The translations under genes and the position numbers were made by a program. A stretch of DNA of 12,340 nucleotides. Source: Physocladia obscura (Eukaryota; Chytridiomycota; Chytridiomycetes; Chytridiales; Chytriomycetaceae). Shown here piece by piece: positions 662-12,340 of the stretch. Location: assembly GCA_027596945.1 (NCBI GenBank), contig JADGJH010000703.1, forward strand, positions 2,838 to 15,177. Direction: 5' to 3'. The notes below the pieces were generated by a model. That model had not been told where the DNA came from. It was given only the letters and a program-made list of their open reading frames with translations, and did not search any database. Numbering within the stretch: the stretch's first letter is position 1; every line of letters starts with the position of its first letter.

Positions 662-1834
662 GTATAATTTATTTCTTGCTTTTCTTGGTCACCTTATTCC
701 CAACTCTTCCAAGCTGCAGCATGTTTTGTGATAGCTGCACTGTGTTTTGATACTAATTTACCAAAACAGATGGTTTGAAAACAGTGAAATTTCTGGATGA
801 ATTCCACCAGAATTGGGAAAACTGGTTGATTTGACTCAGCTGTGAGTTTCTTCTTGTTGCTCATTCCTACCAATTCCAAACTTGTTGGCAGCATGTCTTG
901 TGGCAACAGCAGTGTTTTTTTGACACTAATTGCTTTTGCAAAAACAGATATCTGGACAACAACAAACTTTCTGGACCGATTCCACCAGAATTGAGAAAAC
1001 TGGTGAATTTGACTGTACTGTGAGTTTTCTTTTCATTGCTCATTCCCACCCATTCAAAAAAATTTGTTAACAGTATGTTTTGTAGTAACTACAGTGTGTT
1101 TTGACACTAATTGGTTTTGCAAAAACAGGCAGCTTAACAACAACCTAATTTCTGGACCAATTCCTCCAGAATTTGGACAACTAATGAATTTGACTCAGCT
1201 GTGAGTAGTTTTTGTCCTGTTGCTCATTCAAACCTATTCCAAACGTGTTGGCAGCATGTTTTGTGACAACTGCAGTGTGTTTTGACACTAATTGGTTTTG
1301 TAAAAACAGACATCTCAACAGCAACCAACTTTCTGGACCAATTTTGCAAGAATTGGGACAACTGGTAAATTTGAGCTCGCTGTGAGTTTTCTTCTTGTTG
1401 TTTATCCTCATCAATTTCAAACTTATTAGCAGTATGTCTTCTAACAACTGTAGTGTGTTTGACACTGATTGGTTTTGCAAAAACAAATCCCTTGAGGACA
1501 ACAGACTTTGTGGATTAATTCCACCAGAATTGGGACAAGCGGCAAATTTGAAGTATCTGTAAGTTTTATTCTTGTTGCTTATTACCACCCATTCCAAACA
1601 TGTTGGCAGCACATCTTGTTGCAACTGCAGTTTGTTTGGAAACTCATTGGTTTTACAAAAACAGATCTCTTACCAAGAACAGACTTTTTAAACCAGAATT
1701 GGGACAACTGGTGAGCTTGAAATATCTGTGAGTTTTATTCTTGTTGCTTATTACCATCTATTCCAAACTTGTTGACAACATGTTTTGTGGCTGCTGCAGT
1801 GGTTTTTGACACTAGTATTGGATTTCAAAAATAG
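662..1834 (+). repeat. Tandem array of an about 180-base exon-plus-intron unit
   Basis: Seven introns (662-769, 842-947, 1020-1128, 1201-1309, 1382-1486, 1559-1664, 1728-1834; 105-109 bases each) resemble one another along their whole length, not only at splice sites. Shared blocks include CTTGTTGCTCATTCC, ATTCCAAACTTGTTGGCAGC and TTTTGACACTAATTGG. Unit spacing is 178, 181, 181, 177, 178 and 170 bases. The first intron (donor GTATAA) follows a strongly eroded stretch (about 598-661) that may be an eighth LRR exon. Introns normally diverge quickly, so their similarity indicates duplication of the whole exon-intron unit by unequal crossing-over or slippage. Confidence 0.85.
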
Positions 1835-1898
1835 GTATCTTGATTATAATAAATTTTCTGGACCAATTCTGGAAAGAGTGAAAAGATTCATGAAATAA
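770..1898 (+). pseudogene. Leucine-rich-repeat gene, seven single-LRR exons, damaged
   Basis: Exons lie at 770-841, 948-1019, 1129-1200, 1310-1381, 1487-1558, 1665-1727 and 1835-1898. Five intact-length exons are exactly 72 bases and all internal junctions are phase 2, so each exon adds one 24-residue LRR without changing frame. The repeat resembles YLDNNKLSGPIPPELRKLVN, the plant-type LRR that forms a curved ligand- or partner-binding surface. The last exon reads into a short divergent tail and stops at TAA 1896-1898. Donors are GTGAGT (once GTAAGT), branch site CTAAT lies about 20 bases before the acceptor, and the acceptor is usually CAAAAACAG. Damage: exon 1 has TGA at 798-800 where others have Pro; exon 5 has AA for the acceptor AG at 1485-1486; exon 6 lacks 9 bases. 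No start codon or signal peptide is visible, so the 5' end is missing or decayed. Confidence 0.7.
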
Positions 1899-4660: not shown

Positions 4661-5471
4661 TCATTTTCTACCACCAAAAAGATAATTTTTAACTTTTTTA
4701 ACCTGGACAAGGGCCCCACTTTCATGAACAGGATAAATGGGTAAACTATCTGCGAGCAATCTTTCAATTTTGTCAGAATCAGACACGCTTGCAACTGCAT
4801 CTGCGAGCAATCTTTCAAGTTTTTCAGAATCAGACACGCTTGCAGCTGCACCAATAATCACGGCAATTTCCTTTTGTGTGCGAAGTTCCTTAACATATTC
4901 TTGCCACCCAGTTTTTTTCTCGGATTCAGTTGCTTTTTTTCATTTGTGTTGGTTTGGAAGTTGAAAAAGTGAAGCAATTAACCTACCAAGTATCAACTGA
5001 TCGATGAATTCCACATTTGTGCATTTAGATGCCCGCCAAGCCTCTTTCCGTAGCTTCTCCAATGTCGCATTCAACTCGACGAGGGTTTCCTGGACCTTTT
5101 TCCTGTTTTCTGATATTTTAATTTCGATACGCTTTAATAATTCCTGCTTGGATATTTTTTCGCTCGTTTTGTCGTCATATTTTCTCTGACAAAGGGTAAA
5201 AAATATTGGAGAAACGATCAGCTCTGGATACAAATACAAAAACTTGCTGAAATTGCATGATACCTTCAATTCAAAATAAGTTTTCTTCACTCTGACTTGT
5301 TTGCTCTTGAAATAGAAGTCGTTATTCACATGCTCATGCCATATGCACTTGTTAGCACAAACAGTACAGCTTCCATCAGTCATTACACAACAGTTAATTT
5401 TATCATTATTATTGGGTATAGCACAGTTTTCATGACACGTAATGTTGCATTTGAGACAGTTTGTAACATAT
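4661..5471 (-). CDS. Exons 4-6: Cys-rich domain and C-terminal coiled coils
   Basis: Exon 4 (5471-5264) starts YVTNCLKCNITCHENC and continues with further Cys/His pairs to CTVCANKCIWHEHVNN, about ten Cys and several His within 55 residues. This is the Cys-rich block that follows GTPase domains in many GIMAP-like and SNTX-like animal proteins and probably binds zinc (family recall plus residue pattern). Intron 5263-5186 (donor GTATCA, acceptor TTTGTCAG) is 78 bases and open in frame, so its retention would add 26 residues. Exon 5 (5185-4987) is a charged coiled coil (EKISKQELLKRIEIKISEN). Intron 4986-4933 is 54 bases with an A-rich acceptor, and the phase is correct. Exon 6 (4932-4661) carries a duplicated 17-residue segment and ends at TGA 4663-4661. 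Confidence 0.7.
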
Positions 5472-8386
5472 CTGTATAATTTTGTTGAATATCAGCAATA
5501 GAAAATCAATGAAAATGGAAAAAGCTCTTGCCTTCCTTGCCCTTTTATGTCAACCTTCTCTGATATCTCCTCTGTCACTTCATATTCAAAATTTTGATTG
5601 GCATGAACTTCCGAGTCAATCTGATTCAAAATTATCGTTTCTTGCTTCATTGTGTTAACTTCGTTGATCAAATTTCTAATTTGACGTTGAAGTTGCTGTG
5701 CAATGGCTTCCAGTTTCTGCCGAAACCGCAATACAGAAGCTGAGCCAGCAGTAGAAATTGGAATCCATGTTTTAATTTTTGAGAAAAAAAGTTCAAAGCA
5801 CTTGACTCCGAGGTCCCAAAATGCCACCATCGGTGCTGGTGTGAAGAAAGCACTGTTGTTGAACATGAAGATTTTTTCTGTTACAGAAATTTCAGCTTCC
5901 TTGAGCGCATCAATGGCTGGTGCTCTGGCACCATCAGAGAAGGTCAAAAGAGGTGTGATACGTTGGCCAAGATCTTTTCCGAAGAGGTCAGACACGCGAC
6001 CAATCTGGTACGCAAGTGTAGCCGTGAGACGTGTTTCACTTGCTTTAATGATGAAGCAAACAGCAGTAAGAGCCGACATATCCAGATCAACGCCCTCAAA
6101 TAGCTTTTTAATCATGTTCAGGGTTCCAGAATCATACTTCAAGCCCCGAGTATCACCGAACCCTGGAGTATCAATTATTACAACAGACCTTTTCAGAATG
6201 GTGTCAAAAATAGTGTATATAGTGATGTTGGAGGTCTGGCTGTGTGCTTGGCCCTGGTTATTGTTCTCTTTACCTTCCCAAACAATTTTGAATCTGAAGT
6301 TGTCATGTATCTCAACTCCAAATAGATAGTTAATTAGAGAATTGAGGGTGGTGGTTTTTCCTGATCCAGTGGGTCCAACCATCAAAAGTCGTATGGGATC
6401 TATTGGCAATCGACGTAAACGTTTCGGGCCCACTGCGACTTTTTTGATGAAATTTTGCTCAAACGTTATTTCTGTTTCAGGTTCATACATATCAAGGAAT
6501 GCGGTGCCTTCAGTGACTCTGCCTTTTATTGTTGATGTCGCCTTGACGTCAAGAGCGAGGCGCGTTCGTTCAAGTGTTTGGATTCCCATAATTGTTGTGC
6601 TTGGTGAAGAAAAGCCTTCCTTGCATTGAGCTTGGATGTAAACATTGTATTTGCTGCCAGCAATTAAGTTTGATAGCTCATGGATAGTTTTATTTGAGGC
6701 AATTTCGATCTGCTTCCAAACGCCATCTGCAGCTTCCTGGAAACTGATTCGATAACCCGTAACAGAACCAACACCAATTTCTGGCGCATTCCATGTAAGG
6801 GAAATGGTTGAGGTTGTCTCTGATTTAGCAACCAAGTGGAAATTCTTCGGGGCAGATGGAGGATCAAATGGATGGCGTTCTTGATCACAGTAAGATTCCA
6901 GGGAGAATGGCGACTGAGAGAATTGGCTGTCATCAGACATAACGAAAATAGAATCTTCACTCTGATTGTCTTTCTGTCCAACGAATTCCACAAAACGACG
7001 AAGAATTTATGTTGTTTCCTTTTTCCAGTGCTTGTCCTGTAAATAAGAAGGTGTTTGCTCAGGAAATTTTTCATTGGTGTTGCCAAGTTTTGGTTAAGCG
7101 CGAGTGGGTGGAAGCGGAAGCAGATAATATTACTTATCTCGATATCGTCAATGTAATAGTGTATCTGGGCTCCAAACGAAGCAACAACTCCTTTACTTTC
7201 CAGGTTCTTCCGAGTTTTGTTGAGAAATAAGACATGTAGTTGAGCATTTCTGGTATAAACTTCCAAGTTTTCTGTCGAAAACGGAGATGATTTCCAGAGA
7301 TAAATGTAATGAGCCAATTTTTCTTCCGCAACGCCTGTTCCACGGATGTGTATCAAAAGTGGAATCAAGCAGTGTTGGAAAATCGTCTCAGCCTGAGAAA
7401 CCAAATTTCTCATCTCCAAAAATTCCTTTGTGAGACCCGCAAATACTCCATCAATCATTGTGATGAAACCGTTAACGTGGCATCGGAAATCAATGAATGC
7501 TTGTATGATTGACTCAGCTTCAGTGGTCAATGTAATACTAATCTGCCGGACTAAACGGGCACTTTGGCTGTCCAGCTTAACAAGAGGATATAAGTGGATA
7601 GTTTTCGGAACAGGTTTCTGTTCCTTGATAAATCTAGGCAGATTTTGGTAAACTTGGATTGCATCTTTGAATGTGGTGGGCATCTGTGGGAGATTTAAAT
7701 CCCCTGTGTATTTTACAATAGTAGTTAATATATGCTTTTTCTCAAAAAATCAGAAATCAAAGAATTACCATACCAAAGAAAGAACAGGTAAAGCCCGAAA
7801 GTTCATCGACGGCGTGCTCGCCGCTGCTGAATTGCGCCGTTCCGTCAATTGAGAATGCAATTTTCTGAAGTGCTGCCTGAAGACTGCCCTCCATTTGAGC
7901 AGACTCAATCTTGCTGGAGACATTTTTGGAAAACACAAAGGCTGCATCGCTACCATATTCAATGCCTGTTACAACATGGGTAGCACTACTCATATTCGAA
8001 ACTTGAGCAGTGTATTGTAGCTGCTCGGTAGCCAAGTGCTCCATAGTGAGAGTATCCATATGCGATCTTGTTTTGGACAAAAGTGACACGCGACTTGTAA
8101 GGGTCGATTCTCGATTATCCTTGAGGTATTTTCCAGAGGCCTTGAGATCAACAAGTCCTGCGAGAACGCTGAGCTTTAGGCTCCCAGAAACGTCCAATCT
8201 CGCAAACTTGTCTGACATGGTCTCCGAGGTAATCACATCCGAGCTCTGAAACGGGTTGGTAACTCTCTTGACATGTTGTTTCAATGCACTATCTTGCCAC
8301 ATGGTGATCCCGACAATGAGTTTGTCTGATCTGGCATCATACAGCATTCCCAAGGCAAATGGACGGCCGAGAGCGGCAATGGTCAT
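4661..8386 (-). CDS. SNTX-like / FN3 / AIG1-type GTPase / Cys-rich multidomain gene, six exons, broken at exon 2-3
   Basis: Exon model (- strand): 8386-7774, 7703-7134, 7036-5532, 5471-5264, 5185-4987, 4932-4661. The product would be about 1120 residues. Domain order: SNTX-like MACPF-related region, helical middle region, fibronectin III, P-loop GTPase, Cys-rich domain, coiled coils. The ATG at 8386 is the first ATG in frame and sits just before the conserved family start AALGRPFALGMLYDARSDK. The frame stays open upstream to an acceptor-like CGCTAG at 8481-8480, so an upstream exon is possible. Junctions 1-2, 3-4, 4-5 and 5-6 preserve frame. Junction 2-3 (donor GTAATA at 7133, acceptor TTTACAG ending 7037) is off by one base, and a TAA follows at 7009-7007, so the locus may be a recent pseudogene. 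A candidate AATAAA lies 29 bases after the TGA stop (4663-4661). SNTX-family proteins include fish venom pore-formers and many non-venom relatives. With an intracellular GTPase fused and no signal peptide, a cytosolic defence role is likelier than secretion; that is inference. Confidence 0.75.
4748..4849 (-). repeat. 51-base tandem duplication inside exon 6
   Basis: Units 4748-4798 and 4799-4849 are 48/51 identical by eye. Each encodes 17 residues like ASVSDSEKLERLLADA on the - strand. The duplication is in frame and lengthens the C-terminal helical tail by one turn set. Confidence 0.9.
5472..5531 (-). other. Probable GC-AG intron
   Basis: Between the GTPase exon and the Cys-rich exon there is no GT donor in a usable place. 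GAAG|GCAAGA at 5532/5531 matches the known GC-AG donor form. It gives a 60-base intron with branch-like CTGAT and acceptor TTATACAG, and joins the exons in phase 2. A second GC donor nine bases upstream (GG|GCAAGG) would also keep frame and remove three residues. Confidence 0.55.
5532..7036 (-). CDS. Exon 3: fibronectin type III domain plus AIG1/GIMAP-like GTPase
   Basis: The exon opens with DKHWKKETT, then TAA (7009-7007), then ILRRFVEFVGQKDNQSEDS in the same frame; both sides read like the same SNTX-family segment, so the stop looks like a late lesion. The only upstream alternative to splicing is a GTG, and the first in-frame ATG is at MSDDSQFS, so this is an internal exon. The FN3 domain spans about 6868-6600 (PPSAPKNFHLVAKS ... 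ISLTWNAPE ... VTGYRISFQE). The GTPase has a P-loop GPTGSGKTTTLNSL (about 6376-6335), switch-II DTPGFGDTRG (about 6172-6143), and TFSDG (5944-5930) where classical G proteins have NKxD, a substitution I associate with this AIG1/septin-like group. A coiled coil follows (FRQKLEAIAQQLQRQIRNLI). It likely binds GTP and drives assembly. The exon ends at 5532 before a GC donor. Confidence 0.8.
7134..8386 (-). CDS. Exons 1-2: SNTX-like N-terminal region and helical middle region
   Basis: Exon 1 (8386-7774) carries about 204 residues that match the SNTX/MACPF-related N-terminal fold: ALGRPFALGMLYDARSDKLI at the start, then alternating strands and the region ending in FSIDGTAQFSSGEH. Intron 7773-7704 (70 bases; donor GTATGG, acceptor TACACAG) splits a Gly codon, and the frame continues without loss into exon 2. 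Exon 2 starts with LPQMPTTFKDAIQVYQNLP, the expected link to the helical middle region, where long helices such as EAESIIQAFIDFRCHVNGF follow. In MACPF-related proteins the N-terminal fold can insert into membranes as oligomers. Whether this copy can form pores cannot be told from sequence by eye. No signal peptide or strong membrane helix is seen. The exon ends near IDDIEIS, at donor GTAATA (7133). Confidence 0.75.
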
Positions 8387-9181: not shown

Positions 9182-9367
9182 CTAACCTCCACCCACTATG
9201 CAAACTTTGTGCCTGTTTTCTTCTGATTTTATTTTTGCATTTCTCAATAAAATTGGCATTTGGGGTGTCTTGGCAACATCCCCATCTGCCTGCATTTTGC
9301 CCAACTTTATTCCTTGAACAATTTGACCCAACCTGTTGAAAGCCTTTTCTATGTTCAAGAATGCCAT
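9182..9367 (-). pseudogene. LINE reverse-transcriptase fragment (motif A)
   Basis: The - strand frame starts MAFLNIEKAFNRL (9367-9329), which is motif A of LINE reverse transcriptases (xFLDIEKAFDRx) with both Asp changed to Asn. After that the reading (GQIVQGIKLGKMQADGD ...) has no recognisable reverse-transcriptase features and stops at TAG by 9182. Because the fragment at 9081-8767 also starts in motif A, these are two separate element copies rather than one split copy. The fragment ends about seven bases from a + strand endonuclease piece. Confidence 0.6.
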
Positions 9368-9374
9368 GTATATT

Positions 9375-9809
9375 GGTATCCTTTCCTTCGCATCCCCAAC
9401 TACCCCAAAAAACTACCGTGTTATATTTGAAGACAAAGATGTGTGTTTTATGGCAATCCAGTGCTCTGACATCACTTTGATTGCAGTCTACTTGTCACTG
9501 TCATGGAAAAACGCCAAAATGCTGGAAATATTGGCTGAGGCTGAATCCCTGTCTGATGGCTTTGTGAAAAGGTGTGTATTATTTGGTGACTTCAACGCGC
9601 AAATGGGCCCAGCAACTGGAGACTCAATCACCAACACACGGAGCAACCTGCTGTTGGAAGAACTGGCCAACTCCCAACTGGACATTCAAATGCCAGTGTC
9701 TGGAAAATGGACGACCTTTTCTGAAACTGGACGTGGGATCACTGATATTGTACTGGCAAACTTTGAAATCAATACTGTTGTGGTACATGAACTGGATTGC
9801 TTTATTTGG
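9375..9809 (+). pseudogene. LINE ORF2 endonuclease fragment (APE type)
   Basis: The + strand frame encodes the middle of an apurinic-like endonuclease: IAVYLSLSW, then LFGDFNAQMG (9582-9605), then KWTTFSETGRGITDIVLANF. These are the tyrosine, Asp/Asn and T-x-S...D-x-V motifs of this family, which nicks target DNA for LINE insertion. The N-terminal Asn and Glu motifs are absent to the left and the SDH motif is absent to the right. It is cut at both ends: by the inverted junction near 9375 and by the start of another LINE near 9810. The first 138 bases are about 91% identical to 12100-12237. The ATG at 9336 belongs to unrelated flanking sequence. Confidence 0.75.
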
Positions 9810-11902
9810 ATGACTACACCACTGCAGAACCCAACAGCAAACCTCGCGCCTCCAGGCACGCCCAAGACCCACAATCCTGATGGTGGCGGCCCTCCAGCTG
9901 TTGTCAGTCCAATCCAGTTTGAAAAACTCAAGCTGGCCTGCTTCAAGAAGGAGCAGGCCAAGCTCGTTTGCCCCAACTGCGAAGCCCCCAAAGCACTTAC
10001 CAACCACGACGTTGGCGGTCAAGTCAGATCCAAAGGCGCCTGCCACATCCAGCTTCACTGCAAGGCATGCAACAGGAATTACTGCTTTGATGCAGCCCTG
10101 GCATGTACTGGGCCAGCGGTCGCTGACACAATCGAAGAGCTGTCGGCTGCCCACGTCACACTCTCAACCCAGCATAAAGCTGCCCCATCCACCGCGAGAA
10201 CCACTGAAGTTGAAGCAAAGAGAACTGCTGTCTCAAAGGCCGATTGCCTCCAACCACTCATCAGCTTCACGCCGAAGGCCACCAAGTGCCTGTGAGAGCG
10301 CAGCCCTGAGGACGCCGCCCCTATTGGGGACTTGATTCTCGAGTCGCGAGTGCCAGCCAACATGACAACAGAGACGCCAACACAGAACATGCAGACGGTA
10401 CCACCTGTGAACCTCAGCTGCAAGTTGGAGTTTGATTTTAGTACAACTTCACCAAAACACACAACTCACTGGAGGGATCCTGATACAATGAGCGAAACCA
10501 GTGAAATGTTTGAATTTGGATCATCAAGCATGCGAAGCCCATTCTCAGCTGCTGGCCCACCTTTGGTTCCCATTCGCATTGCACAATGTGACTGCAAAGT
10601 TAACTCAAAACCAATTGCTGCGAATCTGAGGCTGCCACGCAAACTATTTATGCCACTGACCTCTGCAGGAGACACCGTGACATGGAAGGCAATAGTGAAG
10701 CGCACAGAGGCGAGAGCTGATCGGGCCAAGGCACAAATGCGCGAATTAAAAATTGAAACGATTCAACTTTGAAATCTATTGAAGTCATTAATTGAACAAA
10801 ACGCAAACACAGATCGCAGGCCAACCAAAGTCCTGAGCAAAGATCAGATCACACCAAATACAACAATGAGACAAGCCCCCCCCCTCTGACAAAAGATCAC
10901 AGTGGAGAATCCAGCTCTGGTGTTGACAGCCAATTCATGCCAGGATTGGACACCAGCCAGACCTCATGGGCAGACAAGGCTGAGGACAAATGCGCAAATG
11001 CGAGCAAGAAAGGAGGCAACAGGCCCAAAGAGCAAAACAAGGTGTCAGACCCCCCAAGTAGCTTGGAGCCAGTCTGGAATCTAGTGACTGGATACAGGAA
11101 ATCGCAAAAGACAAACTTGGTGAGGACGGCAAACAGAAATACATATGAGGGGGGCTGCATCAGTGGCACATTGAACTTGACAAAAGTTGGTCCCCCTCAA
11201 GGATCGATAAGTGCACACCACCTTGTTTCCTCCACAGCCTCCTTTGCTAATATAGCTGCCACCCTCCCGTCAGCCCAACAGCTACAAAAACTACGGAAAA
11301 AACATGCAATTGCTGTTCAGCGTATGGTGGCCCCAGTTCAGGAACCACTGAAGTTTAGAACCATCCGAATGGTCATTAACGACACAAGACCACTCCGGGA
11401 CCTACAAGGGAAAACTCGGGACCGCACCATTTGAGAACTAGCCAACCACCTAGGAATCAGCAAGTTTATCGTGCTAACCTTGTCAATTGGCAACTCCATT
11501 GTGGAGTTTTACGTCTCGGAAGCTGCCTATGCAACAGCCATCTTGCACCTAGCAGAAGCTGGAGTGAAACTATACACTGGGACTGATGTATTCAAACCTC
11601 CAGCCCATGCTCGCCAATCCAAGGAGGCATGCCACCTATCAATTGTCAACAGACTTGCACACCTCTGCCTTTCAGCCTGTACTGTTAATCTACAGGACAC
11701 AATTCTGGAGGGAGCAACTCTGGAAATCAGAGTGGCAGTTCTAAAGAAAGCACAAGAGATAACTTCTAACGTGGCACTGAAACTGGGCCGACAACTGGAA
11801 ACTGTCGGAAAGAGTGAATCTGAACCAGTGCATGAGAACCAGGTGGAACAGTCTCCCTTGGAGGAAGACGATGACATGGCTGAGGAGTCTCAACTATGTT
11901 GA
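9810..11902 (+). pseudogene. LINE ORF1, three in-frame TGA and one frame break
   Basis: The likely start is ATG 9810 (MTTPLQNPTANLAPPG). The frame runs through TGA 10293-10295 and TGA 10770-10772 with protein-like sequence on both sides, shifts by -1 at a nine-C tract (10876-10884), passes TGA 11432-11434 and ends at TGA 11900-11902: about 697 codons. The N-terminal part has a CPNC (9969-9980) ... CKAC (10059-10070) zinc-ribbon-like pair. A low-complexity middle follows (Ala/Thr/Lys-rich). The C-terminal part (NHLGISKFIVLTLSIG then VEFYVSEAAYATAILHLAEA) has alternating strand/helix structure that may be an RRM-like RNA-binding fold; the end is acidic. ORF1 proteins of LINEs bind element RNA to form the RNP. 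The exact family is not recognised. It lies directly upstream of ORF2, which it overlaps by seven bases. Confidence 0.65.
11896..11902 (+). promoter_or_regulatory. ORF1 stop / ORF2 start overlap ATGTTGA
   Basis: ATG of ORF2 (11896-11898) and TGA of ORF1 (11900-11902) overlap within seven bases in different frames. In some LINEs such overlaps support termination-reinitiation for ORF2 translation. Here the arrangement is seen; the mechanism is inferred. Confidence 0.55.
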
Positions 11903-12340
11903 TACACCTCGCAAACGTAAATGGCCTGGCGGGCAATGCCGAAGAAATCTGCTACTTTAATTCTCAACAGCAAACTCATATAACGTTTTTATTAGAAACT
12001 TGGTTATCACCTCAATCATCTATCCAATTTAGACCTCATATCTCAAACCTTTTAACTGAAAATATGGAACAAACTGCCGGTGGATGTTGCAGCACTGGTG
12101 GAATCCTTTCCTTTGCATCCCTAACTACACCAAAAAACTACTGTGTTGTATTTGAAGACAAAGATGCGTGCTTTATGGCAATCCAGTGCTCTGACGTCAT
12201 CTTGATTGCAGTCTACTTGTCACCGTCATGGGAAAACACCATTGACAATGAAATGCTGGAACAACTTCAAGATCTTTTTGAGCATAACTCCAGTTCCCTG
12301 GTTGTTGCTGGACGCAGGAGTAAGCCAATTGAAAACTGTC
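11896..12340 (+). CDS. LINE ORF2 N-terminus, endonuclease domain, runs off window
   Basis: From ATG 11896 the frame is open to the window end (148 codons). It has the APE-endonuclease motifs in order: HLANVNGLAG (Asn motif), LLETWLSP (metal-binding Glu), then a stretch like the upstream copy, IAVYLSPSW (Tyr). Where the GDFN motif is expected after LVVAG, the sequence reads RRSKPIEN, so either the frame or the element breaks near 12310. The start overlaps the ORF1 stop, which fits coupled translation of ORF2. The reverse transcriptase, if present, lies beyond the window. Confidence 0.75.
   Translation, partial: MLIHLANVNGLAGNAEEICYFNSQQQTHITFLLETWLSPQSSIQFRPHISNLLTENMEQTAGGCCSTGGILSFASLTTPKNYCVVFEDKDACFMAIQCSDVILIAVYLSPSWENTIDNEMLEQLQDLFEHNSSSLVVAGRRSKPIENC

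Follow-up and report, generated by a model that had tools for sequence, protein, structure and literature searches.

A stonustoxin-like MACPF domain encoded beside FN3, GTPase and Cys/His-rich domains in the chytrid Physocladia obscura: a candidate GTP-gated pore-former of a type shared with animals

The DNA analysed here (the window) is a stretch of 12,340 nt from Physocladia obscura (assembly GCA_027596945.1, contig JADGJH010000703.1, positions 2,838 to 15,177) that covers most of a 15,177-base contig in an assembly of 21.76 Mb and 1,222 contigs. Its minus strand encodes, from position 8386 down to 4661, a domain of the stonustoxin (SNTX) type with a MACPF/CDC-like fold, followed by FN3, GIMAP/septin-like GTPase and Cys/His-rich domains. 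The G1, G3 and Cys/His motifs are intact, homology to other proteins extends over both halves, and the locus was found at one place in the genome. Tentatively, and with a confidence that stays short of even, we regard it as a chytrid member of the SNTX-FN3-GTPase proteins that descends from a single gene and acts as a GTP-gated intracellular pore-former in defence or regulated death; a single transcript, GTP-driven assembly, pore formation and the defence role are the parts of this reading that we infer. The fungal host, which an earlier note made from the letters alone had left conditional, is now established, as the public proteins HK100_011422 and HK100_011423 are named Physocladia obscura, a chytrid of the Chytriomycetaceae.

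The N-terminal half matches two Pfam profiles above their cut-offs (27 in both cases), MACPF_SNTX (PF24674; E 1.8e-10, 40.9 bits) and Stonustoxin_helical (PF21109, FAT-like; E 8.9e-8, 32.6 bits). The earlier note had named a failure of such profiles in this region as what would count against its reading, and these matches remove that objection. Among PDB sequences, exon 1 is closest to stonustoxin beta (4wvm_B, E 7.5e-39) and then to stonustoxin alpha (1.9e-27), and exon 2 also matches the beta subunit (E 1.8e-11). Sequence and structural model together predict a MACPF/CDC-like domain in which both helix clusters are present. Fold matches of this domain include astrotactin-2. In the Z-score lists of the fold comparisons, the absence of a family carries no information about that family. 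No other MACPF (PF01823) was found in the genome at E 0.001, and no SPRY match was found in the exons by Pfam.

The second half combines an FN3 domain with a GTPase whose G1 and G3 are intact and which carries the TFxD and NNSA motifs of its family; the TFSD found at the G4 place may act as G4. Searched against PDB sequences, the GTPase exon mostly retrieved FN3 chains (among the best 60 of 76 matches), with septin Cdc3 as a weak hit (0.0043), and no NACHT or NB-ARC was found among the exon Pfam matches up to E 0.1. Besides its own, the fungal relatives among the matches listed are three proteins of Zopfochytrium polystomum (P0175, P0176 and P0177), which belongs to a different family of Chytridiales; their AIG1 scores are 27.9 bits for P0176 and 24.1 for P0175, with no AIG1 row for P0177, and the predicted fold of one Zopfochytrium relative matches Toc34 and GIMAP2. 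Downstream, the ten near-invariant Cys and His residues of exon 4 probably form a metal site. This exon is skipped by the public protein HK100_011422. Because its Cys/His residues are conserved and separate matches of P0175 end and begin near its limits, exon 4 is very probably genuine and its omission from the public model an error.

A frame-keeping model of six exons, built from stop-to-stop frames and splice sites, gives a product of 1,094 amino acids (aa) with its ATG at 8386 and its stop codon at 4661-4663 (Table 1). It reproduces exactly the limits proposed in the earlier note (4661..8386), and the SNTX-like region, FN3, P-loop GTPase and Cys-rich domain each lie where that note had put them, the AIG1 and Septin scores being just below cut-off. 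Outside the exon 2/3 junction some 1,000 codons of exon sequence are open and the splices fit, four introns of the model being GT-AG and the third GC-AG; one P0175 match, spanning exons 5-6, contains one TGA. The single series of exons with frame-keeping introns described in that note is a putative transcript. The SNTX and GTPase halves were each found in one place in the genome, with no paralogue of either, among the best candidates, which were those scored. In exon 6 a stretch of 51 bp is repeated in tandem (4748-4850, 94% alike), which lengthens the protein by 17 residues close to its C-terminal end.

Table 1. Features of the SNTX-FN3-GTPase locus in window coordinates. Exon support is by tblastn with 291 relatives; residue conservation is from an alignment of 184 relatives.
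Feature	Coordinates	Strand	Remarks
Exon 1	7774..8386	-	Start codon 8386; most of the SNTX-type MACPF/CDC-like domain; Pfam match 7931-8380; 151/291 relatives
Intron 1	7704..7773	-	70 nt, GT-AG; crossed identically by HK100_011423
Exon 2	7134..7703	-	End of MACPF region and stonustoxin helical domain; Pfam match 7246-7446; may reach ~7054; 150/291 relatives
Exon 2/3 junction	6955..7133	-	Modelled as 179-nt GT-AG intron; thioredoxin-like sequence in exon-2 frame down to ~7054
Exon 3	5532..6954	-	Thioredoxin-like end, FN3, GTPase, helical stalk; may start at 6969; within open frame 7006-5492
FN3 domain	6593..6856	-	PF00041, E 1.8e-14, 54.1 bits
GIMAP/Toc34/septin-like GTPase core	5933..6391	-	AIG1 profile match
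P-loop GPTGSGKTT (G1)	6350..6376	-	First G in 179/179, last G in 180/180, K in 181/181 aligned relatives
DTPGFGD (G3)	6152..6172	-	D, T, P, G each kept in 177-179/180
TFSD at G4 place (TFxD in family)	5933..5944	-	T in 172, F in 169, D in 170 of 175
Intron 3	5472..5531	-	60 nt, GC-AG; separate P0175 matches end/begin here
Exon 4	5264..5471	-	Cys/His-rich domain; 164/291 relatives
Ten near-invariant Cys/His	5330..5458	-	Each kept in 157-165 of 163-165 aligned relatives; all ten present
Intron 4	5186..5263	-	78 nt, GT-AG; model and P0175 matches
Exon 5	4987..5185	-	Helical C-terminal part; 146/291 relatives
Intron 5	4933..4986	-	54 nt, GT-AG; model
Exon 6	4661..4932	-	C-terminal end, stop codon; 116/291 relatives

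Searching with the whole modelled protein returned 54 matches, 31 of which (P0002-P0032) combine, according to precomputed Pfam lists, stonustoxin helical and fn3 domains with septin or AIG1. An organism is named for 25 of these 31 and is in every case an animal (lizards or snakes, amphibians, bony fish, rays or sawfish, crabs or shrimps, and a coral). The order of SNTX, FN3 and GTPase domains in the animal proteins recurs here on one strand, in a putative single polypeptide. The strongest match after the protein itself is P0002, encoded on a 201-kb contig; its 1,537 aa comprise SNTX-type domains, thioredoxin, FN3 and two tandem GTPase copies.

The animal relatives P0011 and P0017 carry a thioredoxin-like domain that separates their helical domain from FN3, and it is in putative remnants of this domain that the two halves of the chytrid locus meet, in different reading frames. 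Among relatives whose exon-2-frame matches start upstream of 7134, 115/150 extend at least 10 codons past the modelled donor, and the G+C content of the supposed 179-nt intron is 0.40 as against 0.24-0.35 in the other four. When a home-made thioredoxin profile (105 relatives) was compared with 375 pieces of the window, one weak match fell in the exon-2 frame (E 0.14) and another in the FN3 frame (2.2, best domain 0.9); the two are colinear, the second reaching the end of the profile, and an unrelated piece scored between them (0.82). Pieces picked after the match was seen were shuffled 2,000 times each. No shuffle equalled the score of the 26-aa piece inside the supposed intron or that of the 35-aa piece with which exon 3 begins; for an 18-aa piece lying between these two, 369 shuffles did. 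We conclude that the locus goes back to a single fused gene. Today the junction may be an intron, whether ordinary or unusual; alternatively, decay may have broken the frame, the assembly may be wrong there, or the gene may have split in two.

Several findings weigh against an intact gene with the function proposed. The public annotation splits the locus at the exon 2/3 junction into HK100_011423 (370 aa) and HK100_011422 (618 aa), and of 63 FN3-frame matches starting at 6600-7010 only 3 begin inside the supposed intron. No family-profile match to the thioredoxin-like SNTX domain (PF18078) was found anywhere in the genome, and the sequence is degraded, as if decaying. With GT-AG and GC-AG introns of at least 40 nt allowed, 21 introns (5 of them GT-AG) keep the whole frame open at the junction and the best profile scores are nearly equal (16.9 bits for the best GC-AG, 16.3 bits for the best GT-AG, 7133-6970), so that none stands out. 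The latter would give 1,099 aa, but it cuts out the piece matched by 115/150 relatives, and the modelled 179-nt intron scores lowest of the five GT-AG choices (6.0 bits). Both GTPase profiles fall just short of their cut-offs, AIG1 (E 5.6e-6) with 26.3 bits against 27 and Septin (E 1.1e-5) with 25.4 against 26.2. Finally, nothing in the genomic neighbours points to defence, and no function for any animal member of the SNTX-GTPase family was found in the titles and openings of abstracts of the open-access papers listed.

The locus could consist of two adjacent genes as annotated, HK100_011423 giving a free SNTX protein and HK100_011422 an FN3-GTPase protein, perhaps as a split pair. This we consider unlikely, though by no means negligible: both public proteins exist (P0055 and P0001), the halves are in different frames where they meet and the second protein begins at a Met near 6940, but the thioredoxin-like sequence is divided between both frames, in order and at facing ends, as a fusion predicts. 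Furthermore, neither public protein includes the conserved exon 4 and the last 18 residues of the first are in a frame other than that of the relatives' match, and for these reasons both look like ab initio predictions.

An explanation of similar, modest weight is that of a decaying copy, in which the thioredoxin linker is broken and the full protein is no longer made. It would account for the frame change in a linker where no intron stands out and for the degraded thioredoxin, and it fits the single genome place and the adjoining retroelement pieces. However, the other exons remain open over most of the length, their splices fit, and G1, G3 and all ten Cys/His are intact, while the frame at the junction would be preserved by any of the 21 introns and an assembly error is also possible.

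How the protein might work, if it is a functional fusion, is suggested by its parts. No signal-like or transmembrane-like stretch was found in the modelled protein, which should therefore act inside the cell. GIMAPs and septins assemble on GTP. Upon a trigger, GTP binding would lead the GIMAP/septin-like GTPase, together with the helical stalk and the metal-binding domain, to oligomerise and so to gather several SNTX domains in a prepore-like arrangement; the two SNTX helix clusters would then unfold into membrane hairpins and the membrane would be permeabilised. Control of a membrane-acting domain by GTP-driven assembly, as the earlier note had proposed, would fit the predicted folds and the absence of signal or transmembrane stretches. 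As a guess based on what sorts of domain are involved, the protein would probably serve in cell-autonomous defence or in regulated death. Alpha and beta MACPF domains of fish toxins form a prepore-like complex and HeLo pore-forming domains are known effectors of fungal NLRs (PMC10566576 and PMC9815663, respectively).

The same fusion might be functional with its SNTX domain as a scaffold or membrane binder that forms no pores, which we give about as little chance as the split or the decay of the gene. A MACPF fold does not by itself mean lysis, and the domain also matches astrotactin-2, whose role is non-lytic; on the other hand, the nearest relative of solved structure is part of a toxin, as one of its subunits, and neither helix cluster is missing. 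Far less probable is a secreted toxin used against other organisms in the manner of fish venoms: it would agree with the stonustoxin homology, but no N-terminal hydrophobic signal was found (the first 20 windows peak at 0.73), SPRY has no match in the exons and a GTPase is expected to function in the cytosol.

Regarding origin, the SNTX part retrieved 351 matches, and in the best 120 all rows with a named organism are animals besides HK100_011423; no relative exceeds 40% identity among the matches listed, and no Zopfochytrium SNTX protein occurs among these 120. For the GTPase part, the best 120 of 469 matches include four fungal ones, its own and the three of Zopfochytrium (51-56% identity), the remaining organism-named rows being animals. 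The GTPase tree (36 rows, no outgroup) places the four chytrid rows on one side of a 100/100 branch, and P0182, an FN3-named GTPase protein of the nematode Plectus sambesii, joins them at 100/99, with a similar picture in a quick tree of 50 rows; this grouping may reflect an artefact, a transfer or a deep lineage. In a quick SNTX tree (44 rows) Physocladia sits on a long branch with the ostracod Cyprideis, whose branch is also long, a grouping flagged as possibly false. Since the trees lack an outgroup, descent and transfer are not separable. A case in which an early-diverging fungus acquired an animal gene that apparently gained introns is reported in the available part of PMC11291939, where Physocladia is not named. 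Weak scans with few peptide patterns found no viral relative of P0001 or of alignment A2 among viral contigs and no prokaryotic SNTX for alignment A1 among genome contigs. Contamination of the assembly by animal DNA, to which the animal names among the listed SNTX matches might point, is the least credible explanation, given the Zopfochytrium identity and clade of the GTPase half, the copies of flanking DNA on other contigs of the assembly and the distance of the SNTX half from any listed relative.

On one side, that flanking DNA (716-1869, plus strand) holds about 6-7 tandem units of 169-182 nt, which apparently consist of a single leucine-rich-repeat exon and a single intron each; LRR_1 reaches only 0.049, below cut-off, and similar DNA occurs on contigs C870 and C1143. 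On the other (9327-12340, plus strand), there are pieces resembling a non-LTR (long terminal repeat) retroelement, with an endonuclease-like frame (Exo_endo_phos_2 0.00023, below cut-off) and further frames. Elsewhere in the assembly, the retroelement side is matched 11 times, on 9 contigs, and the leucine-rich-repeat side 12 times, on 6. No Rfam family was found in the window.

The domain reading is thus right, the host is a fungus and the protein type is common with animals, one-gene status and function being inferred. SNTX proteins have been studied as fish venoms, and many animal SNTX-GTPase fusions exist, with no role found. Titles and the openings of abstracts in the open-access papers listed brought up neither a study of an SNTX-GTPase protein nor SNTX in a fungus. 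A chytrid version found at a single place would offer a microbial system for testing whether a GTPase can gate a MACPF pore. With it, AIG1-like GTPases would be extended to fungi, where a 2013 study, in the part available, reports no AIG1 domain in representative species (PMC3723955), and there would be an additional pore-former fold, one that did not turn up in term searches of the available text of three papers about NLRs, immunity and cell death in fungi; MACPF, stonustoxin, GIMAP and perforin have no mention in that of PMC10197012 and PMC12881547.

Among known systems, the closest are the animal SNTX-thioredoxin-FN3-GTPase proteins of Pogona (P0003), Portunus (P0011, 'Neoverrucotoxin subunit beta') and Montipora (P0017), all uncharacterised. 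Their SNTX, helical, thioredoxin, FN3 and AIG1/septin GTPase domains follow the order modelled here (by Pfam scan for P0011 and P0017, from a precomputed list for P0003) and they have the Cys/His domain too, so that the architecture, which the earlier note considered worth describing in a fungus, is indeed fungal here but not special to fungi. In Physocladia the thioredoxin-like segment is degraded and the modelled product shorter (about 1,094 aa versus 1,258-1,323), with one FN3 stretch, as in P0011, where P0017 has two. Compared with stonustoxin alpha/beta (4wvm) and the fish SNTX toxins, the locus has a GTPase module and no SPRY match, and was found at one place in the genome.

The Zopfochytrium proteins have the GTPase and Cys/His domain in common with Physocladia but differ in their N-termini, and up to E 0.01 they match neither SNTX nor thioredoxin nor FN3. 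In P0175 (residues 1-172) the predicted structure shows a confident small helix-plus-strands piece at about 131-170, ahead of the GTPase, and a helical fold of low confidence over residues 1-127; neither Pfam (up to 0.01) nor a sequence search of the PDB gave a match for this N-terminal part. Conceivably, chytrids possess a family of modular GTPase switches outside the NLR class, each joining the conserved GIMAP-like GTPase and metal domain to one of several N-terminal effectors (MACPF/CDC-like in Physocladia, others in Zopfochytrium). They would be GTP-gated immune pore-formers shared with animals by descent or transfer; we hold this broader proposal to be improbable.

The usual G4 of GTPases differs from TFxD, and it is by this motif, by the Cys/His domain and by the SNTX partner that the present protein departs from the GIMAP, Toc34 and septin GTPases. 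From the fungal HeLo, gasdermin and NLR cell-death proteins it differs in having no NACHT or NB-ARC match and another pore fold, and what it would share with them, by proposal only, is the intracellular control of a membrane-acting domain.

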